The position numbers were made by a program, and so were the translations under genes. Below the pieces are notes generated by a model. That model made no database searches, had not been told where the DNA came from, and was given only the letters and a program-made list of their open reading frames with translations. From assembly GCA_026874595.1 (NCBI GenBank), contig CM049317.1, forward strand, positions 37,730,401 to 37,794,400: DNA of 64,000 nt, read 5' to 3'. Of this stretch, positions 3,001 through 26,337 are shown piece by piece (position 1 is the first letter of the stretch; each line of letters begins with the position of its first letter). This stretch comes from Sipunculus nudus. Its lineage: Eukaryota; Annelida; Sipuncula; Golfingiida; Sipunculidae.

Positions 3001-4170
3001 CGCGCATATTAATGAATGAACGACCATCGGAAAAGAGGCGTGCCTTCTCTCGCGCATATATTACTGAATGAACGACAACTGGAAAAGAGGAACTTGTTTT
3101 AGGTTTCTAAGTATATTTGCCCAGAACCTCCCTTGATGTTTTGATAGAAGAATCTAAACCTAATGGATACAATTTGTGACCTGACCGACTCTCTGGGTAT
3201 GCAAAATCAAGGTTTTTGGCCCATAGCTTGCAGGATATAGGTCACCATAACACAATTTTAGGTTTTTTAAGAGATGTGCAAAAGACGTACGTGGAACTTA
3301 TCTTAGAAGATTTTAGGTATAACGGATACAATCTGTGCCCTGTCTGACTGTCTGGAAGCTCAAAATCAAGTTTTGACCTATACCTCGCAGAATATAAGCC
3401 TCCATGACCTAGTTTTCAGGTATCAGAGGATATTTGCCCGGAAACTCCCTGCGTTAGAAGATTCTATGCGACATACGGGGTGCTCAAATCATGTTTCTTA
3501 TCCAATAGCTCGCAGAGTTTGGGTTAAAGTGAGCTTATTTAAAGTTTTTTTATAGACATTTGTCCAGGGCCTCCCTGAATTTTATGTAAGAAAACTTCAA
3601 AAGGCCTAATGGGTACAATGTGTGCCCCACCTGACTGTCTGGGTGCTCTAAATCGTGTTTTCGGCCCGTAGCTCGCACAATAAAGGTCAGCATTAACTAA
3701 TTTCAGGTTTCTAAAGGAATTTGGTTAGGACCTCCCTGGATGTACAGTTAGAGGTTCTATGTCCATCGGTTACGATTTGTGCCCTGTAAAAGGATGTACG
3801 ACCGGGCGCACGACGGACAAAGGGCCGGTGGTCGCTCTTGCTCAGATGACTTACAGTCACCCGAGCTAAATTTCGGCTAGTACATAATAGGCCTGACGTT
3901 CTGACGTCGGGCCCGTAGAAGTTAGTGCTGCCAAGGCTTAGAAAGTTTCTTATGACCTAAAGAGTCCTGTCGAAAGAATGGTTACGAATAGAATGAAAGG
4001 TCTATCAGAATTGCAGACGTACCTAATTTGACTCCGAGTCCACTAGCCAAACTGGAGAAGAAGCCGTTGATGGCGAAGCAGACGACAGCTGCCACGAGGA
4101 TCAGGATACGAGCGACATGGTGACGCGGGCTACTGGCGTTCCCCTCCATGTCCGGGGATACCTTACTCAT
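1..4170 (-). CDS. Copy A: TspO/MBR-like multi-pass membrane protein (3' end cut by window start)
   Basis: Two exons read on the minus strand. Exon 1 is 4170-4023 and ends in 'TTAG' followed by the donor GTACGT. Exon 2 starts at 726 after the acceptor 'TTATTGTAG' and runs open to base 1, so the C-terminus is outside the window. The intron is phase 1 and splits a Gly codon. Exon 1 encodes an N-terminal extension (MSKVSPDMEGNASS...) and a hydrophobic helix (ILILVAAVVCFAINGFF). A second in-frame Met (4149) would give a start closer to the sister copies. Exon 2 shows an N-S-T sequon, 'EISDKF', 'ITPSGPTFSIWGVIY', 'FRRGPGGGYLYYDP', 'NTAWLFVWDR' and '[13 protein letters not shown]', as in copies B-D. 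The Trp of 'PAGW' is replaced by Pro here, so this is the most divergent copy. No stop or frameshift is seen in the visible part. Family assignment is by recalled resemblance to bacterial long TspO/MBR proteins; the ligand and role are unknown. Confidence 0.8.
959..1478. mobile_element. Foldback (long-TIR) element with 9-bp target duplication
   Basis: Bases about 959-1165 and 1270-1478 are inverted copies of each other (about 210 bp per arm, near 85% by eye) around a ~110-bp centre. Matching stretches include ACAGG.GCTTGAATTGCT at the tips, then AGATTTCGGTTAAATTTGTT, ACTATATGGT, CTCTTTATTATT.ACTTAAT and CCGACAGCCATGG. The direct repeat TGGTTTGGG flanks it at 950-958 and 1477-1485. Long arms plus a 9-bp duplication are typical of Mutator-like non-autonomous elements; that class is inference. 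It sits in the intron of copy A and has no coding capacity. Short ORFs inside it are chance. Confidence 0.75.
2078..3091. repeat. 50-bp tandem array (about 20 units) in the intron of copy A
   Basis: The unit GACAACTGGCAAAGAGGCGT plus GCCTTCTCTCGCGCATATTA recurs every 50 bp (for example 2161, 2211, 2261, 2311, 2361). The units in the middle and at the right end are more varied (GAGTGACGACAACTGTC..., CTTATCTCGCACATATTATT). Short ORFs on either strand across it are repeat artefacts. Confidence 0.95.
3091..3790. repeat. Degenerate ~160-bp tandem repeat, about four to five units
   Basis: Recurring blocks are TTTTAGGTTTCTAA, ATATTTGCCC, GACCTCCCTG, TAATGGATACAATTTGTG, GACTGTCTGGGTGCTCAAA, GGCCCATAGCTCGCA and ATAGGTCACCAT. 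They appear in the same order each time with many substitutions, so this is an old array directly abutting the younger 50-bp array. Confidence 0.8.
3790..3900. repeat. Dispersed-repeat remnant
   Basis: The stretch with 'GGGCGCACGACGGACAAAG', 'GGTGGTCGCTCTTGCTCAG' and 'CACCCGAGCTAAA' recalls the 3' tails of dispersed repeats common in bivalve and other molluscan genomes (for example ACGACGGACAAAGGGC...TCAGGTGAGCTAA). The identity is from memory, not from a search. It lies in the copy A intron about 120 bp downstream of exon 1. Confidence 0.4.
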
Positions 4171-5235
4171 GTCCGTGTCTCTGTAAAAAATACATATTAA
4201 AACTACATGACATGATGACTTGGGCTACTGGCGTTCTCCTCCATGTCCGGGGATACCTTACTCATGTCCGTGTCTCTGTGAAAAATACATATTAAAACTA
4301 CATGACGTGATGACGCGGGCTACTGGCGTTCCCCTCCATGTCCGGGGATGCCTTATTCATGTCCGTGTCTCTGTAAAAGAATGCATAATAAAACTACATG
4401 ACATGATGACTTGGGCTACTGGCGTTACCCTCCATGTCCGGGGATGCCTTATTCATGTCCGTGTCTCTGTAAAAAAATACATAATAAAACTACATGACAT
4501 GATGACTTGGGCTACTAGCGTTCCCCTCCATGTCCGGGGATACCTTACTCATGTCCGTGTCTCTGTAAAAAATACATATTAAAACTACATGACATGATGA
4601 CTTGGGCTACTGGCGTTCCCCTCCATGTCCGGGGATACCTCACTCATGTCCGTGAGTCCTTAAACCAATATATATTAAAACTACATGACATGATGACTTG
4701 GGCTACTGGCGTTCCCAGCAATGTCCGGGGATACCTAACTCATGTCCGTGTCTCTGTAAAAATACATATTAAAACTACATGACATGATGACTTGGGCTAC
4801 TGGCGTTCCCCTCAATGTCCGGGGATACCTTACTCATGTCCGTGTCTCTGTAAAAAATACATATTAAAACTACATGACATGATGACTTGGGCTACTGGCG
4901 TTCCCCTCCATGTCCGGGGATGCCTTACTCATGTCCGTGAGTCTGTAAACCAATACATATTAAAACTACATGACATGATGACTTGGGCTACTGGCGTTCC
5001 CCTCCATGTCCGGGGATGCCTTACTCATGTCCGCGTGTCTGTAAACCAATACATATTAAAACTACATGACATGATGACTTGGGCTACTGGCGTTCCCCTC
5101 CATGTCCGGGGATACCTTTTTCATGTCCGTGTGTCTGTAAAACCAATACATATTAAAACTACATGACATGATGACGCGGGCTACTGGCGTTACACTCCAT
5201 GTCCGGGGATACCCTACTCATGTCCGTTAGTCTGT
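4100..5235 (-). repeat. 95-96-bp array made of the splice acceptor, ATG and start of exon 1 of copy A (12 units)
   Basis: The motif TCCGGGGA recurs at 4151, 4246, 4341, 4437, 4533, 4628, 4724, 4818, 4913, 5009, 5105 and 5202. The first occurrence is inside the real exon 1 of copy A. Read on the minus strand, each unit is a T-rich tract ending in TTTTTTACAG, then AGACACGGAC, ATG AGT AAG GTA TCC CCG, the codons for GNASSP, and then diverged sequence with an in-frame ATG TAG. The array is therefore built from the 3' end of the 5' intron plus about 60 bases of exon 1, copied away from the gene. Plus-strand ORFs across it are artefacts. Confidence 0.92.
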
Positions 5236-8200
5236 TAATCCAATACATATTAAAACAAATAAATCAGGAGGACATTCAAGGGATTATTTAAGGATAATGT
5301 AACTTGTATCCGTGAGCCATTCTTTGGTTTATATAATATATAAATAGTATATTCATCACGTTAGTTTAATATGAAGCCCTACGTTTCTGAGCTTACGCGC
5401 ATTAGAACCAACATGGCCGTGACAGAGGATGAGTTCAGTTTACCAGCTGTACAACGTCTGTAAATTCAGGTAGACAATTTCAGCATGTCAACCTGATAGC
5501 TGAAATGTAAGCGGCCATAGTTCAATAGGTACTAATTGTCACGAGAGGACTGTGACTTTGTTTTATTATTGAATGTTCAATTAGGGAGTATAACCAAATG
5601 ATTTTTTTTTAATTCATTGTACATTAATACGGAGTATCATTTTTAGACGTTAACGCCAGAACTTAGGTTGGAGAGCACAGGTGCCTCGTTTGATTTTTAA
5701 TTTCAGTACAGTTTAATTCCGCTTGAGCCGTCTCTCTATACGATCTCTATAGTAACGTTGTTTATGGTAAACATCCAAGGCCGAACACCTGCTTTGTTTG
5801 CTTAACTCAGGGTCGGAAGTCGGTCGGAACTTGCGACGTCAGCAAAACCCTGGTTAAGAAGAAATTCTCTACAATTGCCTGTTCAGGGCGGAAGTCGGGT
5901 CTGAAGAAGGCAACGCTTATAACTCTGTAACGGACTTCAGAGAGGCTATCGCAATTGCCGACGGACTGGTATTCCGGCGGTCTTGTATGTGTTGTGAGCA
6001 CTTCCAGTGACAGGCCAAGGACATTACTTACACGCGAAACTTCAGAGGTACTGGGTATCGTTATGTGGGGACATTCAGTTACCTAGTGCTGGATGATTCC
6101 AGAAGACATCGTCTGTGAAAGACATCGATTTTAAGTTTAGATAGAATAGGCAGTCAGTGCTGCGTGAACTTTACCTCGAGACACTTTCGTGTTCTCCGGC
6201 GAGAAACTCTTGGTGGTTGGACCGTGTGCATACATATTATTTACGTTTACTAATTTTGCTGGGTATACAGTGCGAGCAAACTGTGATGTGAGCGGCTTGG
6301 CATTTCGATGTCACGTGTGCGCGATGGTCATGGGATCAGGAGCGGTGTAAACAAAGGACTCCCTCTGTATATACAGGTGAACATAACGGACTTCGTGATT
6401 TCGTGTTTCTTATTGGATCATCAGCGTTTATATGTATTGAGCGCCTCTCCATGTATATGTATTCTTTTGTTAATATATTGATTTGTTTGTTAACTCATGT
6501 CTTATCCATCTTTTTACGTGTATGTATAAATGATTTTTAACCGGATTGGTTTACCAATTAAAAGATCCTGGCCGTTCATGCCTTTAGGGTTGTGACACAA
6601 ATAAAATTTTAAAACGGTTACAAAATCAGCCGGAATCCATTTTCAGGACGGCCAGAAAATTAACATTTTACCTAACTGAACTTTGTAAGACAAAAGATTA
6701 TAGCTGTTCAACTTGACAGACCGTGTTTCAAATGTACCCCGAAAATATTAATGCCTGGTGAATGTCAGTACATCAGTGGTACGCTTATTACACTGTGTGA
6801 CTCTGGGGTGTCGGTCTCATCTCAAACTGAGGTTACTGACGGTGTGGCTGATACGGCTGAATAATCCTGTAACATGAACCGACACAACGCGCTGTTTTAT
6901 ACTGGCTTGTCTGTGGGCAGTGTGAAGAAACGCCACATGTGTCCACCGGTACATCTTTGTTCACGCTGTGCAGGTTCAATAATCTATCAGGCGCCTGCTT
7001 GAGCCCTATAGGTCTGAATGCAGACAACGTAACAGACCAGAAAACATAATGGCATAATGTTGACACTGCATGTGTTGACGATAAAGATGAACTAAATGCA
7101 TGACTCATTCCCAAAGCGAGACATATAAACAAATACGCTTGTTTTTCTTTGCTCTGACAAGCCATGCAAAACATATACACTTACGTTACTTATATTACTA
7201 TCTGTAACAATTTACTTGTACACACTAGTGGATCTATATAAATACGAGGAATCTTACTTCAGAGGTGCAAGTCCTAGGCCCAGGAGAGAATCTGACCGGT
7301 AGCTGGGTATTTACATTCCTGACTAGTAGCTGGGTGTTGTACTAGCTGATGCAAGCAGGCGGGGAAATACACAACCATTCAGCTGTTATATACTGATGTA
7401 AACAACATTCACGTGCTAACCCACGCGGCTTAAAGGCCTAAAGCCACTCTGAATACCAAGACCGTCAGAGAACACAGCATTAGAAAACCTTGCTTTCTAA
7501 CACGGTACACTTGTGTGGATTAAACAACCGCCAAAGCAAGATTAGTTTCAGCACTGCGTGTTCAATAACTGCCTCACGTGGCACGCCATGTGCCAGGACC
7601 TCACCAAGCCCCATGGCGTCAGTGTTCATTCAATGTCAGTGCGTGTCAGTAATTACATTACGCCCACAAGGGCCCCGACCGTCAGGTATTGGTCACATTG
7701 TTAACGCCCATTGTGATGCAAACGACGCAATGGAACAACCGAACTGTTGACTGAAGACTTGTTCGAGATAAAACTGTTAATTAATTGTCAGTTTTACTAT
7801 TACCATTCGCAAAATAATTTTTTTTTAAACTCCATGAACCTGACAGCCAGCCTTTGCGATCATATCAGTTCTGCAGAAATCATATACACTGAGCCCACCA
7901 AAATACGTGTTTGTCAATGAAAGGAGTGCACTTGCCCGAAACCTTGCAAGACGGTCATTCATCATTAGTGCCCCCCCCCCCCCCCCCCAAATAACTCTAC
8001 ACTCAACTTTTAAAGATTATTAAAGGTCCAATTTTGTGTTAGATGTGCGTGGTCAAACAACGAGCAGAGGAGCGGAGATATACATAGTTGTAACCTCACT
8101 CAGAATGCCAGGCCAGCAGGACAAATAAAATTAACTGAATCAAGTCATTAAGTATCACTATAAAAAGAATTGGTTTTCTTACCGAATCGGTTATTTTACT

Positions 8201-9200
8201 GTGTATTTTCTTGTGTTCATATCAAATGACAAAACCATTTTGCAGGAAACCCCTTCACCATCTTATTTACTTTCTTAATACTAATTGAGAATTAATGTAG
8301 TAAATGTAATGTTCACAGTGTAATGAATGTGCTTACACGAACCCGATGTGTCACATTTTCTGGTGATATATTGATGCAGTTATTCAGTGTAATCGTATTG
8401 TTTGTCAGCTTGAAAAATCGGCTTCCTTGATTTAATTTACAAAATATATGATCTCCTGTTTTCCTTATAGCCATGTATGTTTGTGAAATAAGACTCATAC
8501 CATGTAAACATTAATGACCGTGATGCCCTTAAACATGCGTTTTGACGATGTCACAGGCTTGTTGTTCATATTTAAGATGTTGGTCGCAAAGCGGTGACGT
8601 TAAGCATCAGCGATGATGTTTATATTTTTTTTCTTAACACTTAAATACAAAATATTATGTATTTATCCCAGCATACACCTGATTGTCGGGTAACTGTTCA
8701 GCGCTGGTTTGGTTTTTTAGTCACAAGTTCCCACGCCATCTCATGTTAGTACACTGAGCCACATTATATATATGTCACCCACGTGCGGGGGCAGCCAGGC
8801 GTGCCAAGGTAAACTCTGTCACCTTTTACACTCGAACATTTTTGCCGGTACCTGTGTACTAAATAGGCCAGTCACGTTATGGACCACGTGGTGTTTTGTA
8901 ACAAAAAAAAATATAAGCTTATATAACACCAAAAAATATAAATAAAATCCTGACGTGAAGAGTGCATGTACACTCATGCTGGAGAACTCATACAGGCCCG
9001 GTCACTCATCACGATCTCCAGAGTCTTTATCAAACTCAAACGTTTTCTTAGAAACTTGGATTACATCAAATTGGATATAATATGTAAACTACCCTGATTA
9101 TACTCACACAAGCTGTCGGTATCGGCGAGTGTTTTTTTTTTTTATTCAGTACGCTAACTAAATGAAACACGAACGGGTTAAGATAACGCGTACTATTAAT
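5236..9200. other. Intergenic region between copy A (minus) and copy B (plus)
   Basis: No exon can be supported. This region is upstream of both divergent genes, so the 5' UTR exon and promoter of copy A should be here or within the array. It contains less repetitive, higher-GC sequence at about 5650-6400, a poly-C run at 7973-7988, and scattered AT-rich DNA. Short ORFs here have no recognisable motif. Confidence 0.5.
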
Positions 9201-9269
9201 GTGTTGGTGTGTGTGTGTGTGGGGGGGGGGGGGTATATATTGGTTCTACTCTCCACGCAGATCAGACAG

Positions 9270-9271
<2 letters not shown>

Positions 9272-9312
<41 letters not shown>
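9272..9312. repeat. (TA)n microsatellite
   Basis: About 40 bp of TA dinucleotides, preceded at 9208-9233 by a (GT)n and poly-G tract. It creates spurious 'IYIYIY' ORFs. Confidence 0.95.
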
Positions 9313-9314
<2 letters not shown>

Positions 9315-9711
9315 TTATTATTTTTATCGTTTTTATTTTCAAGTGCAATATGAATTCATACACCTTTCATCAGGCAAGTGTGCTCGGATGTTACGGCATA
9401 AAGTAGAGTTATATGATCTGTTATCACTGACGACGTCGGGTCTCATTCGGCTGTATAAGCTTAATTTGTCTTCCCAGCTGGTGATGTCATTCTTGTAGCT
9501 TTTCTTAGCCCCCTGTGGCGCATTAAAACCAAGCAGGCATGACATGCGCTGAGGGGTTACAGAATATATTTAAACGTGCAGTTGGCCCCAATTTGTGCAG
9601 TTATAAACTGAAAATGTGCAGTTAAAAACTTAGAAGGTATAGTCCATCAATGTTATACGACACATATAAATTGCTCTGGTGTGACTTTGCAAATGTTCTG
9701 TAATATTTCTG

Positions 9712-9718
<7 letters not shown>

Positions 9719-9796
<78 letters not shown>
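9719..9796. repeat. (TA)n microsatellite abutting a SINE tail
   Basis: About 78 bp of pure TA, directly adjoining the 3' end of the minus-strand SINE-like element that starts at 9797. Confidence 0.95.
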
Positions 9797-9799
<3 letters not shown>

Positions 9800-10190
9800 T
9801 CCGCCAAAGGGGCGGGGGTTATTTGCCGGCGTTGGTTTGTTTGTCTAATAGCAAAATTATTTACGGATTTTGATGAAATTTTCAGGAGAGCTCGGCAATG
9901 ATATGAGGAACAACAGCTGAACTTATTGATTAAATGTTGGGGGTGATCGGGATCTGCATTTCTGATAGTGCCATATTGGGGTAATGAGCTGCCTTGGCTT
10001 GCTTGCTCTCTGAGTGCTTCAGCAAATGACCAGTATTCATTCATACTTTGGTAGAAAGAGCACACCCTTGTGGTAACGACTTTGGCCAGGAGCTGAGCGC
10101 GGATGGCCGGCGAAACGGGACGCGAACCCACAACCCTGCGGTCACAATCCGTCACATAATCTAGCACAGCAACCATCACCACACTCTATA
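9797..10190 (-). mobile_element. tRNA-derived SINE-like element
   Basis: On the minus strand the head near 10190-10110 looks tRNA-like: GTGCTAGATTATG..., then GACCGCAGGGTTGTGGGTTC followed by GCGTCCCG. GGTTCGCGTCC fits a pol III B box (near 10118-10129). The A box is weak. The body and tail contain ACGGATTTTGATGAAATTTT in plus orientation near 9860 and end in 'GGGGCGGGGGTTAT' and 'GCCTCCGCC', next to (TA)n. Similar tails are widespread in marine invertebrates, from memory. The 186-residue ORF read across it is spurious. Confidence 0.6.
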
Positions 10191-10199
10191 AAGCGAGGC

Positions 10200-12962
10200 G
10201 TGAAACAAACCAGGAAAAAGTAAATAAACCGTCATTTTGGTCTTACAACACGTAAATAAAATAAGTTCAGTAGTCCTGGTCATATATACAGCCTCGTGAA
10301 TAGGCCTACATTAAGAATGGAGGCAATCAAATATATTTGAATTCTCTCCATGGATTTTACCCAATATCCGCACATACAAATAATAAATTTACTGTTATTT
10401 ACTGTACACAATAAATACTTTTTCGTAATATGGTCATTAATGTGAACGCTCGACAGAAATAAATGCTTCGGTAAACATTGTCACAACACACTATACCCGT
10501 GTGCAGGAGCGCTGGCAGTGGTAATTTTACCGGCGCTGTTGGGTATAATCAGGCTACTCAAACCATAAATATTATATCAAGTACGCTGTACACATTTATA
10601 GCGGCATTTCGGGTGGCTTTAAAGACATTTCGATACATGAGGAATTTCAAGCACTTGTACTACAGTTTGAGTTGTTTCGCTTGTATGATTATATGTACCG
10701 GCCTCACAGCTGAGTCACCGCGTGGGCTTGACTGAGTTTACCACACGCAAAACAAGGTACCTTAATTAATATTCCGGCACCGTACAAATCCCGTGCCAGT
10801 ACACGTGTTTCGCCCGGTGGCCCAGGATCACCAGTCGTGTTATAGCCGAGGATTTGTAGAGAATCATATTGAGCAGGGCGCACTCAGGCAGGGAAGTCGT
10901 GTGAGGGACAACTTCAAAACACAGCTTTGTTCCTTTGACCAGAAAATCAGCATTTAGAATTTGACCGCAATTCAGAGTAAGTGTGACAATTTTTCGAACA
11001 TTTTGTTTAAATGCGTTCGAAAGAAGACATTGCTATTAATTAGGCAATTTAAATGAAGCTCTTCACTCTTAACCAGTGTTCAAATTTACATTGATTTAGC
11101 TCAACCGATTTCTTTTGCTCTCCTCCGTTGAGCGATGTATGTTTGGCTGTCGACGTCGTCCTTCACTCAAGCGACCGTCTAGTAATAAACCTGAAACATA
11201 TACTTGAAATGTTGACAGATCCTGGTGGTATCCCGCGCAAGTTACCTGTTATAGTGGAGAAACTGAGCAGAAAAACTAATTAACCCCAAAAACACGTGCG
11301 GTCAATCACAGAATTGCATTGTTTTAAGCACCATTTGTTGTTGTTTTTGTATTTTGTAAGAATTGAACGGATTTTGTTTAAATGGTGGTGGTGGTGGTGT
11401 GTGTGTGTGTGTGTTGGGGGGGGGGGAGGTATGGTAATACTCAAAGAACAGCCCATTTATCAATTTTGGAAGTAATCAGGATCACCAAAATGTATTTTGG
11501 TTTTTAGAATTTTTTACTAATATGTGAGACGAGGTGATACTTTTGCCCTTGCCGAGGAAGACACCGTCGTCATTCACCAGTATTAGGCAATATATATATT
11601 AATATATATATAAAGGTATCATTCTCATGCACCGCCCGCGTCAATTTTAACCCCCTGCATCAAACGTTTTGATTTTGATTTTCATCTTTAAAGAAGTTAA
11701 AATAATACAATTTCGATAAAATTTTCTGTGTTATGTTGTGCTTTTACTTGCTTAGGAAAAACAATCTATTATTTTCATGCTTTATCGTAACATACAGAAA
11801 AAAGGTAATAATAAAATATCGCCCGCCCGCACTGATTTCTGAAGAAAGTGCCTGAGAACCATACTTTATTTTGCCTTGGAGAAACCGATAGAAGAGTGCC
11901 TTCGCGTGAAAATGCATAGCCGCCGGCAGCGACGACACGTCCAATATACCTTTAATTATCGACTATTTCGTCTCCCCCCATACTATATTATATAGAGCTA
12001 GTAGCGTCATATCGACCCTCTGGTATTACGACCAGATAACTGGCGCCAGAGTATCCTTACATCTAAGTCTGAGGAAAGCATTATAAGGCCTTATGAAGAT
12101 GCAATTATTTTCGTCATTTCTGACAACGCTTCATGGCCTACAGGTACACTGTCAATCAACATAAATCAGACCAGTCATTAGTATTTTTGTGTACTTTCTA
12201 ATAATACCAAACATGAGGATGAAAAATTCCGTTTTAACTCAGAAAATTAGCAAACCCCTCGGCATTGAATTTTAATTAATGATCGCATGAACACAAACAT
12301 AGCACGCACGGCCCGGTTACAGGAACAAGCAGCTTGCAGGCGATACAGGGAATAACCCGTGTCAATGGAGACGGTGCATGTTTCAGTTTGGGCTGTGAGC
12401 TCACATTGATACTATCGTGTTAATTTACCACGATATTGGCTTACCATAACTGGGCTCTTTCTAAATAAAATGGGATACCTGAAATTATTATTGGCTTTAT
12501 CCCTTTTTACACATGCACACAGATCGTGCCGACCTTAGAATCCCATTCAAAATGTACTCAGACATATCTAACATTTTGGTCCCCCTCGGTGACTATATAT
12601 GGTATGTGCAGGTGTGATCTGGTAGGAACTGACATTGTTCTGGTTCACAGAACTTGCCTGTGATGCAGCTATACAAGGAGTAAGTGAACATGCATTTACA
12701 CACATCTCTTTTTGCGGGGAATCATTTATTATTTCATGTGCTTAGGTACCGAACACCAACGTTTGATTACGATCCTCATTATATCACGGAACTAACTGTT
12801 CAGAATATTTGCGGATGTATGGGGTCTCCGGGTGCATTTCCTAGCTACCTTAACACATGTACATTGTACAAGTCGGGAATTCTCCAGTGTATCCTTTAAG
12901 TCTTTTTTTTTATTCGGTGTTACATTCATTTTCTGTTGATGCGAACCAACCAAATATCGTGT

Positions 12963-13003
<41 letters not shown>

Positions 13004-13120
13004 TAGTGCTATATCTTTCATCAATAAGAAACGTACGTCCGTAAGCCCTATACGTCCAGATGTTGAACACTTTGTATGACTATATATGAATTCCTTTAAC
13101 TTAAGTAATGTATCAGGCCC
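10200..13120. other. Intergenic, no supported gene
   Basis: AT-rich DNA with a (GT)n/poly-G tract at 11395-11427 and TA-rich patches (11590-11612, 12966-12992). At 10975-10983 the sequence AGA|GTAAGT could be the donor of a 5' UTR exon of copy B, but nothing else confirms it. Small ORFs lack any recognisable motif. Confidence 0.4.
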
Positions 13121-13125
13121 CAAAG

Positions 13126-13675
13126 GTCTGTTCCACAAAACGGTGCCCAATGAAATTTGGCAATTATTCCCTTAACCCCCCCCCCCCCCACACCCCCCCA
13201 CCCCCCCCACCCCCCAAAAAAAACTCAATCTGACCTTAAAGTTGATGAGGGACCAAAGGCCTTATATGACATGTAAAACCTCATAACAAAAACATTTATA
13301 TTTTGCAGTCCTCTGGTTCTTTTTAATATTGTGGCCAAGTGACCTGGCGTCTGCCATAGATTGCAGACAACTTTACTTTTTAGAATATTTATGACCAGTT
13401 ATTAGCAAATCAGGAGCTGTCAAGTGCAGTTGTTTTCATGTGACCAGTGACCTTGACCTTCATGAATTGGGTTGAGGTGTTGTAAAAATAGACTTGTTTT
13501 CTCATATATCGATTTAATTGCATTGCTTTAATATTTTGCTAGGTATGATAATAATTTAATTATAGCAAATTAGGCCAACACCTCATTTCTTCATTGCAAC
13601 ATGCCATCTGATTATAATCTGCCAGTTAATGAAAATATTGCCAAATTTCAATGGGCACCCTCTTGTGGAACAGAC
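13126..13675. mobile_element. MITE-like element with ~40-bp inverted ends
   Basis: The left end GTCTGTTCCACAA...GGTGCCCA...TGAAATTTGGCAAT (13126 on) matches the right end read in reverse (13675 back, GTCTGTTCCACAAGAGGGTG then CCCATTGAAATTTGG). It is about 550 bp with no coding sequence. A C-rich tract (13170-13215) lies inside. No clear target duplication was found. Confidence 0.65.
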
Positions 13676-13960
13676 TATAGTATATAATAGTGTGTCAATT
13701 ATTTTTGTGACACCAAATATACAACACACAGACGTGTGCTACAATATCTTGATCTTTTCTGAATATTTCCTACACACTGGTGATGAAGGCGGTCCGGTAT
13801 ATGTAGAGATAACGACCACCTTATTATGCAGACAGTCGGCTAAATGCATTATAAGTATATACATTTACTTACTTCGCAATGTTTTTGTGTTGATATTCTC
13901 CGTGTGCGAAGTTCATGGCCTGCTCTACGTAAGTACGGGGTCATAATAGCGTGTAGTTTG

Positions 13961-14038
13961 TGACGTCACCGGTGTCGCGTGAATGCACATGAATGCGATA
14001 AGGCCAGTTGATACGAGGGAATTTATTTTGTGACGTCA
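13961..14038. promoter_or_regulatory. Two palindromic CRE-type sites upstream of copy B
   Basis: TGACGTCA occurs at 13961-13968 and 14031-14038, 70 bp apart and about 430-510 bp before the copy B ATG. This 8-mer is the consensus full cAMP response element bound by CREB/ATF proteins. A single TGACGTCA also lies 339 bp before the copy D ATG. Function is not shown, because the same 8-mer also appears in the dispersed repeats at 22254 and 23302. Confidence 0.3.
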
Positions 14039-14471: not shown

Positions 14472-15528
14472 ATGGGGGAGCACAAGCCGGTTTACATCGT
14501 ATGTATTGTAGCTGCGGCTGTCATGTTCATCGTCGCCATCATATTTAATGCCCTCTCCGGAAGTATTGGTGTTCAGGCGGGTAAGTATAGGCATATAAGT
14601 GTTACCTATAAATTGTCAATAAATTGAAGTATCGGTGATACTTTTAAGATGAGCCCCCTCACTGGTGATTAGAAGTAAGAAGGGTAGGTTTGTGTGTGTG
14701 TGTGTGTGTTTTTTTCATAGCGTATCAGCGTTTTTTATCATCGAATGATGTTTTCTTTATGAGCAAATATATCGCAGTGATAAATAATTTGCCTCGGTGA
14801 CGGGATTCATAGGTTAAAATAATCTCTTTTCCACACATTATAGTTAAATGTGAAATCCTGCATTTATTTATACAATCGCTATATTTCGTTTAAATAAAAA
14901 CACTGTAACTGAAGCCGATTTATATGTGGCAGGATAGTTACATTGTTTGGGATGCTGTTGCGGGCTTCACCAGAGGCTTGGCACATGACCGATGTTTTCT
15001 TTATGAGCAAATATATCGCAGTGATAAATAATTTGCCTCGGTGACGGGATTCATAGGTTAAAATAATCTCTTTTCCACACATTATAGTTAAATGTGAAAT
15101 CCTGCATTTATTTATACAATCGCTATATTTCGTTTAAATAAAAACACTGTAACTGAAGCCGATTTATATGTGGCAGGATAGTTACATTGTTTGGGATGCT
15201 GTTGCGGGCTTCACCAGAGGCTTGGCACATGACCGATATTTGTTTTCAAACCAATGAGAGGAAGGCATCACATTTTGCATCCGACTCCAAGTTTCAAACC
15301 CGCGATAACCAGCCCTCATTGATTTGATTACAATTCTTATCCCTGTGACAGCCTGGTGGTGTTATCCGGTCTATACAAACCAGCGGTTAAAGCGAAGGAG
15401 AACGCAGTGTATAATCACTGTGTAAATAAGAAGCGTATGTTGGGTTATTTACAAAGGATATTAAACTGTTTTCATCGACTTGCTACAATGCAACACACAA
15501 TTACGAGCACCTCAAACCCTTCGAGGTG

Positions 15529-15603
<75 letters not shown>

Positions 15604-16746
15604 ACAGTGTACAGTGGGGCGCCGATTATTCGAACACTGTTTATCCGAAAACCCGTTCCTCCAAAAGATCCGACATGATGACGATTTATCCTGATTTTTT
15701 TTAACTGATGCTTTTATGAATTGAGTGAAAAAAATAAGTTTATCCGAAAACCCGTTCCTCACAGATTTAAACTAAAGAACCGATTTGATTACTGTTTATG
15801 CTAAATTTTCTGAAATTGATGCCTATATGGATTTAGTATTTAACAGTACCGATAGTTTGCTCCTGATACCCATTAATTAGCACATGACATCGGTTGATCG
15901 TCCGGGGATAAATACTTTGTTCATGGTAGTATGTTTTGTATATTTTCAGGCGTATTCCTTAACGGCACCGGCGATGTGTCGGACAAGTTCAAGACAGAGA
16001 TCACGCCGGCCGGCTGGACGTTCTCCATATGGGGGTTTATTTACGCCTACCAGGCGATATTCTTTGTGTACGCCTTCTCTACTATCTGCCGACGAGGGCC
16101 CAATAAAGGCTACATCTACTACGACCCCGTGATCAATCCTCCTGCCATCTACATTATCTACATCTTCAACATGGCTATTAACATCTCATGGTTGTTTGCC
16201 TGGGACCGTCAGCAGATGATCGCGGCCCTTATACTTATCGCGCTCCTCCCGTTCTCTCTCTACATTTGCTTGTTCTTGTCCATGCGCGCTGTGATCAAAT
16301 ACTCCCCTGAACTCGTGGCTGCCGGGAACCATTACGAGCCGTGGCTTGTCCGAGGGATTGTACATAACGGGCTCGCCATTTACGCTACGTGGGTAACCAT
16401 AGCAACCCTGCTGAACTTCAATATCGTACTAGTGTACAACGCGGGTGTATCATCTGAGACGGCCAGTACAGTGGCCCTGGGAATCCTAACATTTGAGATT
16501 TTGCTGTACTGGACTCTTGATAACATTGTCCTGGACCGGTACACGCGTTACACTTACACCCCCTACATCGTGGTCATCGTAGCGCTGGTCGGGAGTCTGA
16601 CCGGAAACTGGAACCCCGGGGCCAGGAACTTCGTGTTCACCGCGGTTTTGCTGGGGATCGGGTGTGCACTAACCTTAATAAAGCTGGCCCTGTCGATCTG
16701 GCGACATTTCTACAGACCGATTGCTTCAGTTGTGCCAGAAAATTGA
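14472..16746 (+). CDS. Copy B: TspO/MBR-like multi-pass membrane protein, intact, 301 aa
   Basis: Exon 1 is 14472-14580 (109 nt, MGEHKPVYIV...), followed by GTAAGT. Exon 2 is 15950-16746, preceded by 'TATTTTCAG'. The join is phase 1 within a Gly codon and gives 301 residues. The start is supported by 'TTTCTTTCAG' seven bases upstream of the ATG, the same layout as copies C and D, which implies a separate 5' UTR exon. About eight hydrophobic segments are visible, near residues 9-28, 58-80, 102-121, 125-148, 168-201, 208-231, 240-257 and 262-288. Signatures are N41-G-T (possible N-glycosylation), 'DVSDKF' 45-50, '[15 protein letters not shown]' 54-68, 'CRRGPNKGY' 83-91, 'NISWLFAWDR' 114-123 and '[13 protein letters not shown]' 181-193. 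The combination of ITPAGWxFSIWGxIY, an Asn/Trp-rich third helix and W/ATW in the fifth is typical of long bacterial TspO/MBR proteins. It is longer than animal TSPO, which is about 170 aa. Function is unknown. Confidence 0.88.
14747..15234. repeat. 244-bp exact tandem duplication in the intron of copy B
   Basis: Bases 14747-14990 and 14991-15234 appear identical, each starting GATGTTTTCTTTATGAGCAA and ending GCTTGGCACATGACC. No difference was seen by eye, so this is a recent event or an assembly duplication. Confidence 0.93.
15535..15600. repeat. (TA)n microsatellite in the intron of copy B
   Basis: About 65 bp of TA dinucleotides. It creates spurious 'IYIYIY' ORFs upstream of exon 2. Confidence 0.95.
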
Positions 16747-16792
16747 GCAACGTCCAACCTGTATTCAGTGTATTGGATAGAGAGATTTGAAC

Positions 16793-17928
16793 AGACCTGG
16801 GGTCAATTCAAATTTTTTCAATTACGATTCAAGAAGATTTATGAAACTTCAATTAATTCAGTGAGCTGGAGAAACATATCAATTCAAATAATTTAAATTC
16901 AATTCATATTCGATTCACAATTGAAAAGTTTCAATCATTTGAATTCATTTCATTGGTGTGTAACGATTGTTATCACAAGTGTTCCATTACTTTTACACAA
17001 TTACACATCTGACAGTGTTGTTCACAATTTGTTAGATTTGCTCCAAAACTAAATGAAATATCAGTAATTAAGAATTTTACCATTCAATGTGGTAAGGCAT
17101 AGCAGCCAGACAGGTATTACTAGTTTTACTGGGCAATAATTCCTTAATATTAGATTAATTGCCTAAATACGGATACAGGTTTATGGATATCAACTGAGTG
17201 GCCATTATCACCTAGTGCAATTAATATTCAGGCAAATTTTGTTGATGATGAAAAAAGTTTTCATAATCATAAAATCACTGATCACTGTTATATCCCCTGA
17301 CAATAGCAAGGTCAACAAACTTGATGCTTAAATGAGCACTGATATGCCATATAATTTTACTGATTTTTGTTATCAAAGTACAGTAGTCTATGGGATGTAT
17401 TCTGCTATCTCTTGGCTGATACATGATCTGGCCAGTAAAATGTCCTGGGTAATTAGATAATAGCTGGTCCACGCACACCAGGCCAGCGGAACAAGTCGAG
17501 GCACATAGACAATATAACAATACAGCAAGAAATGGGAAGTAATAGAATGTCATACATTTTACTCTAATCCTTTGCCTTCTGTTACCATTACTATTTCAGC
17601 TCAATTTTATATTTATTATATTACTATTACTTGTGAAAAGCTCGTGTGCTGAAACTGGTGATACAGACAATTCAGGAACAGTGATTAAGAAGCACTTAAG
17701 CTGTTATCATGCTACTTGTGTCACCGTGAGAGGCTTTTGTGTTCGACTTTAACCAAATACTGCGTGACTAATTTAAATCTGACATTGAGTAACTTCCAAT
17801 GAGCAACACTTGTGTGACTTGACTTGTGTTCATCAATTCAGATCAATTCAGTTTTATTTTTTTTTTCAATTCCAATTCAATTAATTTTTCCTTTAATTCT
17901 AATTCAATTCAGAATTGACCCCAGGTCT
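16793..17928. mobile_element. DNA-transposon-like element with AGACCTGGGGTCAATTC ends
   Basis: AGACCTGGGGTCAATTC at 16793 is repeated in inverse at 17928 (GAATTGACCCCAGGTCT). Both sub-terminal regions are runs of AATTCAATT-type sequence. It is about 1.1 kb with no transposase. It begins only 46 bp after the copy B stop codon, so it may lie in that gene's 3' UTR. Flanks AGATTTGAAC and AGATTTAACC are similar but not a clean duplication. Confidence 0.6.
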
Positions 17929-18522
17929 AGATTTAACCCTCAAAATTTTGAGATAGTGATACAGTTAGATCAAGTCTCTTCAATTTATGAAAAGATCATG
18001 TACTGTGACCAGGAAACAGTTACCCAACCCGCACTCGTGTCGCCTCATTTTGAATGCTGCCAGCATTGCCACCATGCCATTGTGTGCCAAGGATAGAGAG
18101 GTCTTACATTTCACAGCTCAAGCCACTGAATCGGCTTAAGACCACAAGAACATGTTCTAGACGATTGTTAAATCCAGTCATATAACGTCGTATATACCAC
18201 CCATTGAGGGTGCGAATGCCAATCAGGTCTGAATTAGTCCCGAGAATGTTTGCAGAATTTATATTTACGCCTATACTGTTAACACTTTTATGATATTTAT
18301 TCCGTGGTATATACTCTTGTATCATTTGAAACTCATTTAAAAACGTATCTCTTTCTGCAGTTTTTTGGTTAAATTAATATGCATCATTTTTTTTTTGGGG
18401 GGGGGGGGGGGTCAGGCACAGGGATGGGATTTCAATGAAATTGTTTGCGAGTATGTGTGTTTGTGAATTGCGCTGAGTCCGGCCATCGGAGAATTTGCGC
18501 TATATAAATATTATGTACTATT

Positions 18523-18553
<31 letters not shown>

Positions 18554-18969
18554 TTTTTATTATTATAATATAACGAATAAGATTGTATTTTATTTGTATT
18601 TTTGTATCATGATGGCACATATTATCTACAGACTACAGAAAGAAGATTAGTTGAATATATCAGTCCAACCAGAAAAAAAATCTAACTTTTTAATCAAAGC
18701 ATGTACTTTTTCAATAAATCTTAATGTTAAACTTTTGAGTTAATTTGATATTTCCTGTCAATCGCCCGAAATTACTGACCCAGTGTGTATGTATACGGGA
18801 ACACGTGGCCACAGTGGTACTAAGGCCCTGACGAATGTATACAGAGCATCAACATTATTACCAGTGCCCCTACATTATGGTAATCATGTGATACAAATCG
18901 CTAAATCGGTAAATGAACTCGGGCACAAGACAGGGCGGCTGCTACTACTAAAACCTTTTGAAAGTATTG

Positions 18970-19475
18970 GGTACTATAGTTCATTTTATCCTGTCATTTC
19001 CACCAGTTATTTGCTATGAACATTTCAATCAGTAATATTCCGAGGAAATACATGTTAATGTAGGGTAGAGAAAAAAGGACCTAATTTTCAACAAGGTAAA
19101 TCAATATCTACCTACCTTACACCCCATTTAAGAAACGTAATTATTTAAAAATACGAGTAATCAATCTATATTTAAATACATATCAGACCCATTTACGGTG
19201 GTCAAGGTCATAGGTCACATGCAAAAAATCCTCATTATACAGCTATTGATTGGATATCATGTAACTATTCTAAAAAATATAACCAGCTCATACGAAGATG
19301 GCTACTCATGCAGGGACACATCTGATCTGCCAGATCATTGTGAAGAGACCAAAAAGTTGTCAAACATAAACTTGAGATTCATTGTTCGATTCTTAATTGC
19401 CATGTTAGGCTGTCACTTCCATGAACAGATTTCTAAGAAATGATTGAAAAATATAAACTTTTTAAGAAAATAATC
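18970..19475 (+). repeat. Dispersed repeat, copy 1 of the 'CTATAGT' family
   Basis: About 480 bp match 21528-22025 in the same orientation. Shared blocks are GACCTAATTTT, GGTCAAGGTCAT.GGTCACAT, AAAAAATATAACCAGCTCA, GATCATG/TTGTGAA and TGTCACTTCCAT. No conserved ORF spans both copies, so the 81-residue ORF here is not supported as a gene. Confidence 0.75.
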
Positions 19476-20265
19476 TATGAAGAACAATGAGGACACAGGT
19501 TGGTGGAGTGCATGGAATCTAATATGTTGAACATGCATAATTTTGTCCCATTCGTGGTCTTACCTATGCAAGAGCACTTTTAAATTAGAAATTACAATTA
19601 TTATGAACTACAGTTAATGCAGGCAAAATGTTGAGTCTTAAATTTTGTAACAAATGTCATTTAGGCCTACATGTCTGTACGGTGTTAGTCATACATCGCC
19701 CTCACATTTGAAATGTGAAAGGTACCTTGGAAGAGTCGCTTTAAAAAATGGGTCGGTTAATAAAGCGGTAGGGGTGGGGGCAGAACCTTATATAAACCCT
19801 CTCCCATCTCAAGACCAAACTATACCCAATGTATTGGCTTGACCCATTTGCTATTGGAAACATATTTTTAAGTGCCACATAATATACGAATGTCTTATTG
19901 ACAGTAGGTTATCCCATACGAAGCGTTCTGACACAGCTCACGACAAGACCCAAATTAATCAAGCCAGAGAGATATAACGCAGTAAAGTGGAAACTGAAAG
20001 CTTGGTGTTGGAAACCACTAAACCCTGAATCATTTGGTCTCGACCTGCAGTGACGCATGAAATATATATAATATATAAAGGCAGCAGGGCTGCACCAGGT
20101 GGCGACACCATCGAATTGTTTCTGGCAAGAAATTTTCCGTTCTGTACACAGAAGATGTATCATTTGAGATGACACGTGTGTGTGTGTGTGTGTGCGACCA
20201 GTGGTCTCATAGTGACAATAAACCTTTCAAAGATGATCATGAATAGTAAAGTTCATGGACATGTG

Positions 20266-20465
20266 TTACGAACCATAATGTAATAACCGGCCCAAAATGT
20301 TATAACGGCCCATAGTGTAATAAAAACGACCCATAATGTAATAACGGCCCATAATGTAATATAAAATGGCCCATATTGTAATAACCATTCCCTGCCCATA
20401 TTGTGATAAAATCGCAAGTAGGTAAAACGGCCCATATTATAATAAAATCGCAGTTGGGTAAAACG
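20266..20465. repeat. Short tandem repeat, ~20-bp unit
   Basis: About nine imperfect units of the type AACGGCCCATAATGTAATA, with insertions of 5-15 bases between some of them. Confidence 0.8.
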
Positions 20466-21527
20466 GCCATGAATTCTATAATTCAAATTTCATGCAAATT
20501 AACTTAAGCAATTCAAATATTGACTTCTAGTGACACGAATGTGTAGGTGTACATACACGTATGAAAAACCACAAGATTGACATAATGACTATCTGTTTAA
20601 AACGGTGCCCCGGGCTAATATGAGCAAAATATATGGCCATGAATCATTGTTTATCCTTGTGTTGAATTAGTGTTTAAATGGGATGATAAAGTATTTAAAC
20701 AGGATAAACAGGAAAATTTTTAAAATTAATATATATATACCTTATTCCTTCAAAATCGGAACCATCCTACAGATAATTCAGTAGTATGAAAAACATTATT
20801 TCAAAACTCGTGAGATTTTTGTTCAACAGCAGTAAACACTTAGAAGAGCCAGACTTCATGGTTACCAAAACTTTAACTTAGCCAGGTCGCACACAGAAAT
20901 TAGGTTTCCAAGAAGATTTCTTCAGGAGCTTTTGACATCAAGCAAAGGCTGTAACTACTTGTGCCTGCTTACGACGGCCCGACGGTAGGAGGATTAATTT
21001 ACTCGGCCGAACAGAAAAGGACGACAGACGGAGTCCAATCATTATCAACTCAGCTGAGCTATACACAAGTGGACAGGAGTAGTGGGCCTGTAGAAATCCT
21101 TTTGTGACGTCTTTCATTCGATAACATGTTTCGGTGATGACGTCATGCAATAGTTCCATTCTATTCATATCCTGGAACAAGAGATTTAACCCTAGAAGTC
21201 ACAGGACGCGACGAATCTCAAATTCATTCAACATAAGGCAAGTTATTTGGTTAAATGTTTGAGTCAGCTGACTTCAAGTCATGCTTAGCCGAATATGACA
21301 GTCTGTGTTCGACGTCCGACCATGATTATATATAATCGACCCATTTTAAGGAGAAAATCATGTAAATTACTAATTTCCTAATGTAAGCTTGTTCAATTAT
21401 GTCAACCAATATGTGGGACTATAGTCCGTCCCAGTACCCGTGTCCGCATGTTTTTCCGGAATAATTTTTCAATCAAGTTAAGCAGTGTAAAACTTTCTGG
21501 TCCAAAGGTTGCAGGATCTATTCCGTA

Positions 21528-22025
21528 GACTATAGTCCGCTTCATCCCTTCATGTCCACCTGTTTTTTGCTATGAAAATGTTTAATAGTTTCATTTCGAG
21601 GGAAACAATTGTAGTGTAGAGTAGAGGATTAAAGGACCTAATTTTTGACAAGGTTACTATATACCTATCTTACACCTTTTTTTGAGAAACAGGATTTTCT
21701 GAGAATATGAGAAATCAGTCTATATTTTACAACATACCAGACCCACTTTTGGCGGTCAAGGTCATTGGTCACATGGAAAAAAGCCTCAACTGGCAGCTGC
21801 TGATTGGATGATCTCATGTAGACCCTCTAAAAAATATAACCAGCTCAAACAAAGACGGCTACTTATGGAGGGACACATCATATCTGCCAGATCATGGTGA
21901 AAAGACTAAAATGTTGTAAAAAATTAACAGGGAATTTATTGTAATATTCTTAATTGCCATATTAGGTTGTCACTTCCATATGTTGTTTTCTTGAAAATTA
22001 TTGAAAAATATAAACTTTTAAGTAT
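21528..22025 (+). repeat. Dispersed repeat, copy 2 of the 'CTATAGT' family
   Basis: Partner of 18970-19475. It begins ACTATAGTCCGCTTCATCCC. The sequence at 21419 (ACTATAGTCCGTCCCAGTAC) is a related start, so family ends are clustered here. Confidence 0.75.
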
Positions 22026-22154
22026 ATCATCCACAAAAAAAAAAAAAACAGGTCGACAGCAGTTGGTGAAACAGACTGTAGCTGCGTAAAAAGTAATCCC
22101 TTACATGGCTTTGATTTTGTATGGGACAAATAATCCAAAATATGACAAAACAGG

Positions 22155-22535
22155 TTACAGCGTTTACAACTTTACGACCAAAACACTGATAATAAACAAG
22201 CCAGGCGAACTGATGATGTAAGTCAATTGAAGGTGACGCGCGACCGATCATTGTGACGTCATAGTTGTCTAACAAACACCACACGAAGCCATAAAGACAT
22301 GGACAGTGTACCATGAGGGAATATACCGTTCAGTAATGCCGGAAACACGCCATCCACGGTCCTGGCTCCATCAGCACAAATTATACGATAAAGGGTCGCA
22401 AAGTTAATACTTTATACATGATATATAAATACTTTACACAAAATCAGCGGAATATCTTCAATCTACTTGAGGCCATAGGGCATTTTAAAAGAAATTTCCT
22501 AAAATGTTTATCGCGAAAAAAACATGCGGACATAG
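22155..22535 (-). repeat. Left arm of a ~380-bp inverted repeat pair
   Basis: Reverse complement of about 23040-23420. Matching blocks include CTGATAATAAACAAGCC, CTAACAAACACCA, CAAAATCAG and TTATCGCGAAAA..CATGCGG. The arm also carries TGACGTCA at 22254-22261. Confidence 0.8.
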
Positions 22536-23039
22536 TTACTCACATAGTCCGTCCCCAAACTCTTGTCCGCATGATTTTTCTCGATTATCTCTACTTAAGA
22601 CAAACTTGCCAAACAAAATTTGCACCAGTTGCATAAAGAAGAAAATGCATTAGTTTTGGTATCGTACCTGCTCACGATATAAATTATATTTACTTTACGG
22701 CCTGGCTGACATACCTCATATATATCCGTGGTTCATTGTTTATCCTCCTGGGATAGGGATATGAAGTAATGTGACGTAACAGTGAAGCGCGTGCACGCGG
22801 AGAATACACGTCTTGCTGTAAACAGGGGTCAGCAACACCCTTCTGCCAAAGGTCGTTTCTACTCAAAACGTATCTCTTCTGCACGGGGAATGTGGGAAGG
22901 ACCGAACTACTTGACAAGTGTAGCCTGGTACAATATTCTCTTAAATTATTTAACAGGAAATTAACGGACCGACGAACGATTAACCATAACTACAGCACAT
23001 ATACCGGGTAACTTATCAGCTTATATAGTCCGTCCCAAA

Positions 23040-23420
23040 ACCCGTGTCCGCATGTATTTTCGCGATAATTATTTTTAAAATATTCTTTAAAAATGCCCTT
23101 CGGGCTGAAGTAGATAAATGGATAAACTGATTTTGTGTTAAGAAGTTATATATCATGTAAAATGTATTAATTTTGCGACTCTTTTGCGTTATTTATGCTG
23201 AAATACCGTGAATGGCGTCTTCCCGGCACTACTGGACAGTACATTCCTCCATGTTACACTTTCCATGTCTATGGCTGCGTTTGGTGTTTGTTAGGCAACA
23301 GTGACGTCACAAAGACGTCACAGTGATCGGTCACGCGTCACCTTCGTCCTAAGGTTTGACTGGCTTGTTTATTATCAGTTCTCAGGCAAGGAATAAGTCG
23401 TAAACGACTCCGTTTAGTTA
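23040..23420 (+). repeat. Right arm of a ~380-bp inverted repeat pair
   Basis: Its inner end is preceded by TATAGTCCGTCCCAAAACCC (23025 on), followed by GTGTCCGCATGTATTTTCGC. The centre of the pair holds another direct copy of this terminus at 22546 (ATAGTCCGTCCCCAAACTCT). TGACGTCA lies at 23302. Confidence 0.8.
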
Positions 23421-23958
23421 CATAAGCTAATAAAAGTACAAATCCCTGTGACGCTGTACAAATCCCATCCAAGACGAAGTCTTGTCGTGACCTCTCGTTT
23501 CAAGATGTCAGGTTTCGTACCTTTCTCTTTTTATAGGTACGAGGGCAAGCGGGACACTATGATATGTTTGAAAATTAATATCCAAGCGTTTTTGAGCGGA
23601 TTACGGCATATTTTGGGTAAATAGCCCCTAGGATTGGAAAATATAGTTTGATTAACGATAAATATGCGAAAACGACAGTTGGGGTAGAGGTCCTTCAGGG
23701 CTAAATATATCTCAACCCCCCCCCCCCACACACACACACACATTGTAACAAGTTCCTGTGCTTGTTATAGACGTCTAGACTGCGGGGTTTGCAATTGACT
23801 GCTCCTATATATATATAATCTATAACGAGAGGCTAATGTGTTCAATGGGGACTTTTTTCTCATTCATAAAAAGAGAGACATTTTAAAGAATTCGCAGAAA
23901 ATATATGCCTCATACTTTCAAAAAGTCAAATATACATTTTTTTTAACGTTAATAAACT

Positions 23959-24087
23959 ATGGGCGATCACAAGCCGCTGTGCCTGCTCTATACATCATCT
24001 CAGCTGTGTTATTTACAGGATTCCACCATTGGAGATAACAAGCCGCTGTACTTGCTCTACATCATCTCATCCTTGTTATTTCCCGGA
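23959..24087 (+). repeat. Two diverged founder units left of the 66-bp array
   Basis: ATGGGCGATCACAAGCCGCT at 23959 and GGAGATAACAAGCCGCTGTA at 24030 are closer to the real exon 1 of copy C (ATGAGCGATCACAAGCCGCT) than the array units are. The left one still has its ATG, but a 2-bp insertion (CTATACATC for CTACATC) follows. Confidence 0.8.
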
Positions 24088-26330
24088 GTAAACTACGGGA
24101 GGCACAAGCAGCAGTACCTGCTCTACATCATCTCAGCCTTGTTATTTCATGGAGTAAACTACGGGAGGCACAAGCGGCAGTACCTGCTCTACATCATCTC
24201 AGCCTTGTTATTTCCCGGAGTAAACTACGGGAGACACAAGCAGCAGTACCTGCACTACATCATCTCAGCCTTGTTGTTTCCCGGAGTAAACTACGGGAGG
24301 CACAAGCAGCAGTACCTGCTCTACATCATCTCAGCCTTGTTATTACCCGGAGTAAACTACGGGAGGCACAAGCAGCAGTACCTGCTCTACATCATCTCAG
24401 CCTTGTTATTTCCCGGAGTAAACTACGGGAGGCACAAGCAGCAGTACCTGCTCTACATCATCTCAGCCTTGTTATTTCCCGGAGTAAACTACGGGAGGCA
24501 CAAGCAGCAGTACCTGCTCTACATCATCTCAGCCTTGTTATTTCCCGGAGTAAACTACGGGAGGCACAAGCAGCAGTACCTGCTCTACATCATCTCAGCC
24601 TTGTTATTTCCCGGAGTAAACTACGGGAGACACAAGCAGCAGTACCTGCTCTACATCATCTCAGCCTTGTTATTTCCCGGAGTAAACTACGGGAGGCACA
24701 AGCAGCAGTACCTGCTCTACATCATCTCAGCCTTGTTATTACCCGGAGTAAACTACGGGAGGCACAAGCAGCAGTACCTGCTCTACATCATCTCAGCCTT
24801 GTTATTACCCGGAGTAAACTACGGGAGGCACAAGCAGCAGTACCTGCTCTACATCATCTCAGCCTTGTTATTTCCCGGAGTAAACTACGGGAGGCACAAG
24901 CAGCAGTACCTGCTCTACATCATCTCAGCCTTGTTATTTCCCGGAGTAAACTACGGGAGGCACAAGCAGCAGTACCTGCTCTACATCATCTCAGCCTTGT
25001 TATTTCCCGGAGTAAACTACGGGAGACACAAGCAGCAGTACCTGCTCTACATCATCTCAGCCTTGTTATTTCCCGGAGTAAACTACGGGAGGCACAAGCA
25101 GCAGTACCTGCTCTACATCATCTCAGCCTTGTTATTTCCGGAGTAAACTACGGGAGGCACAAGCAGCAGTACCTGCTCTACATCATCTCAGCCTTGTTAT
25201 TTCCCGGAGTAAACTACGGGAGGCACAAGCAGCAGTACCTGCTCTACATCATCTCAGCCTTGTTATTTCCCGGAGTAAACTACGGGAGGCACAAGCAGCA
25301 GTACCTGCTCTACATCATCTCAGCCTTGTTATTTCCCGGAGTAAACTACGGGAGGCACAAGCAGCAGTACCTGCTCTACATCATCTCAGCCTTGTTATTT
25401 CCCGGAGTAAACTACGGGAGGCACAAGCAGCAGTACCTGCTCTACATCATCTCAGCCTTGTTATTTCCCGGAGTAAACTACGGGAGGCACAAGCAGCAGT
25501 ACCTGCTCTACATCATCTCAGCCTTGTTATTTCCCGGAGTAAACTACGGGAGGCACAAGCAGCAGTACCCGCTCTACATCATCTCAGCCTTGTTATTACC
25601 CGGAGTAAACTACGGGAGGCACAAGCAGCAGTACCTGCACTACATCATCTCAGCCTTGTTATTTCCCGGAGTAAACTACGGGAGGCACAAGCAGCAGTAC
25701 CTGCTCTACATCATCTCAGCCTTGTTATTTCCCGGAGTAAACTACGGGAGGCACAAGCAGCAGTACCTGCTCTACATCATCTCAGCCTTGTTATTACCCG
25801 GAGTAAACTACGGGAGGCACAAGCAGCAGTACCTGCTCTACATCATCTCAGCCTTGTTATTTCCCGGAGTAAACTACGGGAGGCACAAGCAGCAGTACCT
25901 GCTCTACATCATCTCAGCCTTGTTATTTACAGGAGAAAACTACGGGAGGCACAAGCAGCAGTACCTGCTCTACATCATCTCAGCCTTGTTATTTCCCGGA
26001 GTAAACTACGGGAGGCACAAGCAGCAGTACCTGCTCTACATCATCTCAGCCTTGTTATTTCCCGGAGTAAACTACGGGAGGCACAAGCAGCAGTACCTGC
26101 TCTACATCATCTCAGCCTTGTTATTACCCGGAGTAAACTACGGGAGGCACAAGCAGCAGTACCTGCTCTACATCATCTCAGCCTTGTTATTTACTGGAGT
26201 AAACTACGGGAGGCACAAGCAGCAGTACCTGCTCTACATCATCTCAGCCTTGTTATTTCCCGGAGTAAACTACGGGAGGCACAAGCAGCAGTACCTGCTC
26301 TACATCATCTCAGCCTTGTTATTTACTGGA
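24088..26330 (+). repeat. 66-bp array, 34 units, derived from the acceptor and start of exon 1 of copy C
   Basis: The unit begins GTAAACTACGGGAGGCACAA, continues GCAGCAGTACCTGCTCTACA and TCATCTCAGCCTTGTTATTT, and ends CCCGGA. The array passes directly into the true exon (26331 GTTGACCATGAGCG). It corresponds to the last intron bases (TTATTTACTGGAG), the start codon region (now ACG) and about 15 codons of exon 1. The 22-codon period keeps an open frame (repeat peptide HKQQYLLYIISALLFPGVNY), giving two apparent ORFs of 395 and 406 residues. They are split by one 65-bp unit with a missing C near 25138. These are best read as repeat, not genes. Confidence 0.93.
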
Positions 26331-26337
26331 GTTGACC

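Follow-up and report, generated by a model that had tools for sequence, protein, structure and literature searches.

In the 64,000-base stretch of DNA analysed here, part of an animal-like genome and hereafter the window, two of four paralogous genes carry a long tandem array that overlaps the first coding exon, and we conclude that the two arrays are most probably ordinary minisatellites in an array-rich stretch, born of chance tandem duplications and tolerated upstream of a last copy that is still complete, a reading to which we give a probability of roughly two in three. Gene A lies on the minus strand and genes B, C and D on the plus strand, and all four share the layout of a short first coding exon followed by a long second exon. 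The features on which the argument rests are the following.

1..727, minus strand: second exon of gene A, running past the window start
4024..4170, minus strand: first coding exon of gene A, the working copy and last unit (A11) of its array (translation; tblastn 4170-4024)
4114..5256, minus strand: array A, 12 units of 94-97 bp (Tandem Repeats Finder: period 96, 11.9 copies)
14472..14579, plus strand: first coding exon of gene B, no overlapping array
15949..16746, plus strand: second exon of gene B
23953..26381, plus strand: array C, 37 units of about 66 bp (Tandem Repeats Finder: period 66, 36.7 copies)
26338..26445, plus strand: first coding exon of gene C, the working copy (unit C36)
27033..27866, plus strand: second exon of gene C, open until its stop
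40342..40452, plus strand: first coding exon of gene D, no overlapping array
46264..47062, plus strand: second exon of gene D, with a frame change near 46349

Tandem Repeats Finder and anchor splitting both gave two head-to-tail arrays, with units inside the minisatellite range of about 10-100 bp, each lying upstream of the working exon copy and in the orientation of its own gene. Their unit sequences show no detectable similarity: two-unit samples of A and of C found no match in the other's array (blastn-short, E <= 0.5). The units of each array descend from their own gene, from a segment that takes in the end of the intron, the acceptor, the start codon and the first 15-20 codons. The array A unit opens with the end of the intron and its acceptor, has the ATG after a leader of 10 nt, and reads on for 20 codons to a stop (typical translation MSKVSPDMEGNASSPSHHVM, then stop), and the last unit, A11, continues into the real exon 1 of gene A. 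ATG is present in all 12 units and ACAG in 11 of them, the exception being A06 with TTTAAGG; the 20-codon frame is found in 10 of the 11 upstream units, and A05 has an early stop after two codons. Nine of the 12 units have the form CCCAAG, with the gene-like CCCGCG in A00, A09 and A11. Variable sites number 4, 6 and 9 at codon positions 1, 2 and 3, with minority-letter rates of 0.029, 0.046 and 0.054, respectively, and rates of 0.047 for the intron portion and 0.083 for the leader, so that a coding-like lean to third codon positions is at most weak.

Array C units correspond to the start of gene C exon 1 (26338), from the acceptor region through the leader to codon 15 or so, and are spaced by 66 bp in 33 of 36 cases, by 67 in two and by 65 in one. 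The array is made up of 34 homogenised core units and, at its ends, three more ancestral-like copies, C00, C01 and C36. The core units carry derived changes (ACG at the start site in 34 of 34, a 1-bp deletion, and CAGCAG for CCGCTG) that are found in none of the end copies; C01 has ATT at the start site, and ATG is left in C00 and C36 only. The TTTACAG acceptor survives in two of the 37 units (C01 and C30) and is missing from the working copy, which has TTTACTGGAG in its place. Graded on the number of pyrimidines and the identity of the base at -3, and not with a trained model, TTTACTGGAG would make a poor acceptor and CATCTCAG, present in 36 of the 37 units, a reasonable one, although the latter is a sequence match only. 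In the sequence-only reading both arrays cover the acceptor and the start codon region; this stands for array A, and for array C it is true of the ancestry of the units and not of their present state. Variation within array C is uneven, with 6 of the first 13 columns (the linker) variable against 4 of the remaining 53, in a count that leaves out letters due only to a 1-bp deletion in C18, and it comes in part from the survival of older letters in the linker.

Mean unit identity is 89% in A (all 12 units) and 98% in C (the 34 core units, of which 19 are identical over the aligned segment), and the end copies C00, C01 and C36 are just 71-76% identical to the core. A homogenised interior with conservative ends is the usual picture for arrays, and here it has arisen twice, independently. 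The paralogues themselves are far more diverged: taking the second exon of gene B as reference, identity is 59% for that of C, 64% for D and 55% for A, the value for D being lowered by an alignment row that starts out of frame because its open frame was taken from stop to stop. At silent sites the second exons are at or near saturation, with pS of 0.70-0.84 in all six paralogue pairs (gene D only downstream of its frame change) and dS of 2.04 and 3.57 in two pairs and not computable in the other four. Units so alike next to silent sites so worn indicate separate and recent events, which bears out the earlier proposal that the same gene module was amplified independently in two paralogues.

The host genes likely belong to the TspO/MBR family, a name that is not established, since only two of the four second-exon proteins match Pfam PF03073 (TspO/MBR; exon 2 only scanned), with a best E of 6.4e-05 for gene D exon 2 that, at 23.2 bits, falls just below the gathering cut-off of 24; NCBIfam TspO matches one of the four (E 0.18). 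A search of solved structures (10 sequences) gave a best E of only 0.75, and the window had no match in Rfam at gathering thresholds. A search for relatives of the genes gave 56 pattern matches in viral_contigs and 28 in genome_contigs, of which none was confirmed. The search for extra first exons returned one weak match at 28284 (E 0.06), and no exon was recognised on reading 28201-28420. In gene B, exon 1 follows the acceptor TTTCTTTCAG with its ATG 7 nt further on. The end of gene C exon 1 (26446-26453) appears to be a GC-type donor, ACAG/GCAAGT, where A, B and D have GT. The frame change in gene D exon 2 near 46349 falls at a run of G; either the sequence is wrong there or the gene is damaged.

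We propose that each array started when, by chance, a segment spanning the 5' edge of a first coding exon was duplicated in tandem. Such a duplication, which takes in the end of the intron, the acceptor, the ATG and some of the codons, would leave a complete exon as the last copy, and because that copy is complete the gene would still work and the upstream copies would be free to expand. They would grow by unequal exchange or slippage, and would then drift and homogenise. In array C a derived unit, with start and acceptor lost and a hairpin-forming quasi-palindrome present, has taken over the interior and left the older copies at the ends, and the hairpin formed by CCCGGAGTAAACTACGGG may account for its spread. 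As the working copy of gene C is without TTTACAG, its exon 1 is probably now joined via the CATCTCAG acceptor in the preceding unit, unless transcription starts inside the array. Neither array lengthens the protein, since in-frame stops lie upstream of both working ATGs: 19 codons upstream in gene A, and in gene C 17 within the array, the nearest 24 codons upstream. That starts and acceptors are not kept in C, and that A05 has an early stop, speak for chance and tolerance. On the other side, array A keeps its ATG and, but for one unit, its acceptor, the excess variation in the array C linker is not predicted by uniform drift, and random placement gives P of only 0.0012-0.0015 for the double overlap.

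These probabilities have to be read against the density of arrays. The 44 rows from Tandem Repeats Finder, once overlapping ones were merged, gave 11 arrays that cover 19,353 of the 64,000 bases (30% of the window), which implies a high background rate; microsatellites, a C-rich tract (13175-13215) and a 2.4-copy 27-bp row (17844-17909) were left out, and the cluster at 20273-20468 was entered as one array with a 39-bp unit. In the chance model single founder units are placed randomly, arrays are independent and the target was picked after the data had been seen. Under it, at least two arrays fell over the acceptor-ATG spans of the four genes with a post hoc P of 0.0012 (200,000 simulated trials), and the Poisson figure for the same coincidence is 0.0015, or 0.0004 with the seven largest minisatellites only. 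For at least two arrays over any of 16 exon edges the Poisson P is 0.022, or 0.006 with the seven largest. Each of the four first exons has an array no more than 375 bp away (P 0.0012 by simulation, on data that overlap with those of the acceptor-ATG figure), the 61-bp array beginning in gene D intron 1, 375 bp downstream of exon 1. No array touches a second exon, an outcome expected in 43% of random placements. The double overlap at first exons is somewhat above chance prediction, and since the figures are post hoc and come from one window chosen for its oddity, they prompt a survey and are no proof of targeting.

The same overlap could be produced by a process acting at gene 5' ends, such as open chromatin, meiotic breaks at promoter-like sites or transcription-replication conflict, that makes first exons a hotspot for duplication. 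Two of the four first exons are overlapped and the others are close to an array, and the literature lends it some precedent, with hotspots in promoter-like regions in various lineages (PMC11703093) and an enrichment of commonly polymorphic human VNTRs at transcription start sites (PMC8096271). Set against this, the pattern concerns four genes in a single window and was noticed post hoc, the A and C units have no detectable similarity, and the acceptor that precedes each ATG implies that the genes have a 5' intron or are trans-spliced. R-loops at the first exon, suggested in the sequence-only reading, are not supported as the mechanism because they call for a G-rich non-template strand and the GC skew has the wrong sign in C and is slight or missing in A: on the sense strand it is -0.15 in the array and -0.29 in exon 1 of gene C, a C-rich sense strand, and +0.11 in the array, which is slightly G-rich, and -0.02 in exon 1 of gene A. 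On balance we consider a 5'-end hotspot unlikely, though worth weighing.

Of the two arrays, only C has a hairpin. The quasi-palindrome CCCGGAGTAAACTACGGG (24077-26320) occurs in 30 of the 37 array C units, all of them core, and is missing from C00, C01, C36 and four core units. Folded as DNA against shuffles, the array C core dimer gave z of -3.86 (plus strand) and -1.79 (minus strand), and two single core units carrying CCCGGAGTAAACTACGGG gave -2.54 and -2.21; C00, C01, C36, core unit C30, which is without CCCGGAGTAAACTACGGG, and the exon starts of genes B and D ranged from -0.60 to 1.07. The array A sample showed no hairpin (z 0.12 and -0.12), and the one sample folded from the 61-bp array did no better than shuffles. 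Among the samples folded, from A, C and the 61-bp array, C alone beats shuffles, and with array A lacking a hairpin it is not the common cause of both arrays. A motif or mobile element common to both arrays was also rejected, as samples from seven arrays gave just three matches outside the array they came from, each 12-14 bases long.

A broader proposal is that first coding exons of this genome or family are recurrent minisatellite seeds, with arrays then taking over some of the splicing, as may have happened in C if its own acceptor decayed and one born in the array is used. We hold this to be unlikely. If first exons do seed arrays repeatedly, minisatellite birth would be linked to gene 5' ends, and the case would illustrate how a gene can live with an array growing at its splice acceptor and perhaps come to rely on it; otherwise the two arrays neatly exemplify where duplications at a coding edge are tolerated.

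The arrays might instead be kept for a function, with repeated acceptors or upstream start codons regulating splicing or translation. Each A unit offers a putative acceptor and a 20-codon upstream reading frame, its elements are largely intact along the array, and CATCTCAG recurs in nearly every C unit. Array A units are just about 11% diverged, so that five kept sites would weigh little, and the ATG is lost in every C core unit and the frame cut short in A05; we therefore find a retained function improbable.

Splice sites multiplied by a minisatellite have a human counterpart, which is said to lie in IFI6 (6-16, G1P3). A minisatellite is reported to give multiple splice donor sites in an interferon-induced transcript (Nucleic Acids Res 1995, 23:1854, cited in PMC2572611), and the statement in the sequence-only reading that no system of this type had been described is thus too strong. 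The likeness lies in a minisatellite across an exon edge with splice-site sequence in each unit, matched here by ACAG in array A and by TTTACAG, rarely, and candidate CATCTCAG in array C; the difference is that IFI6 repeats donors whereas arrays A and C repeat acceptor sequences and the start region, in two paralogues struck independently. Compared with ordinary intronic and exonic minisatellites and VNTRs, as described in PMC8096271, arrays A and C are alike in unit size, head-to-tail order and gene-associated placement, but they were founded on the very start of the first coding exon. Tandem genomic duplication as a route to intron gain (PMC4974935) likewise takes place within a gene, although there it is tied to a new intron and here long arrays lie upstream of an existing exon. 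Among the literature matches listed, none concerned arrays over first-exon acceptors, and the passages taken from PMC11506328 had no bearing on the question.

Assembly is difficult where near-identical units run on at length, and the copy numbers given here may be wrong; an assembly artefact as the source of the arrays is very improbable, however, given that units all along the two arrays have variants of their own and that the end copies are unlike the core. Least credible is the translation of array C as a repeat protein of 22-codon units, for although the ATG at 23959 begins an open frame of 395 codons that stops at 25144, this is what units of coding origin whose length is a multiple of three would give, the frame is terminated by the 1-bp deletion in C18 and does not enter exon 1 in frame, and most variants, as read, change the residue.

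Other repeats in the window were also noted. In gene B intron 1 a 244-bp segment is duplicated in tandem (14747-15241, 99% matches), beginning 165 bp after exon 1, and this duplication is very recent. The ratio of observed to expected CpG is 0.06 in the 61-bp array (40828-46003) and 0.10 in a 34-bp array (60133-64000), compared with 0.83 in non-array sequence, a scarcity that suggests methylation-driven loss or a CpG-free founder.
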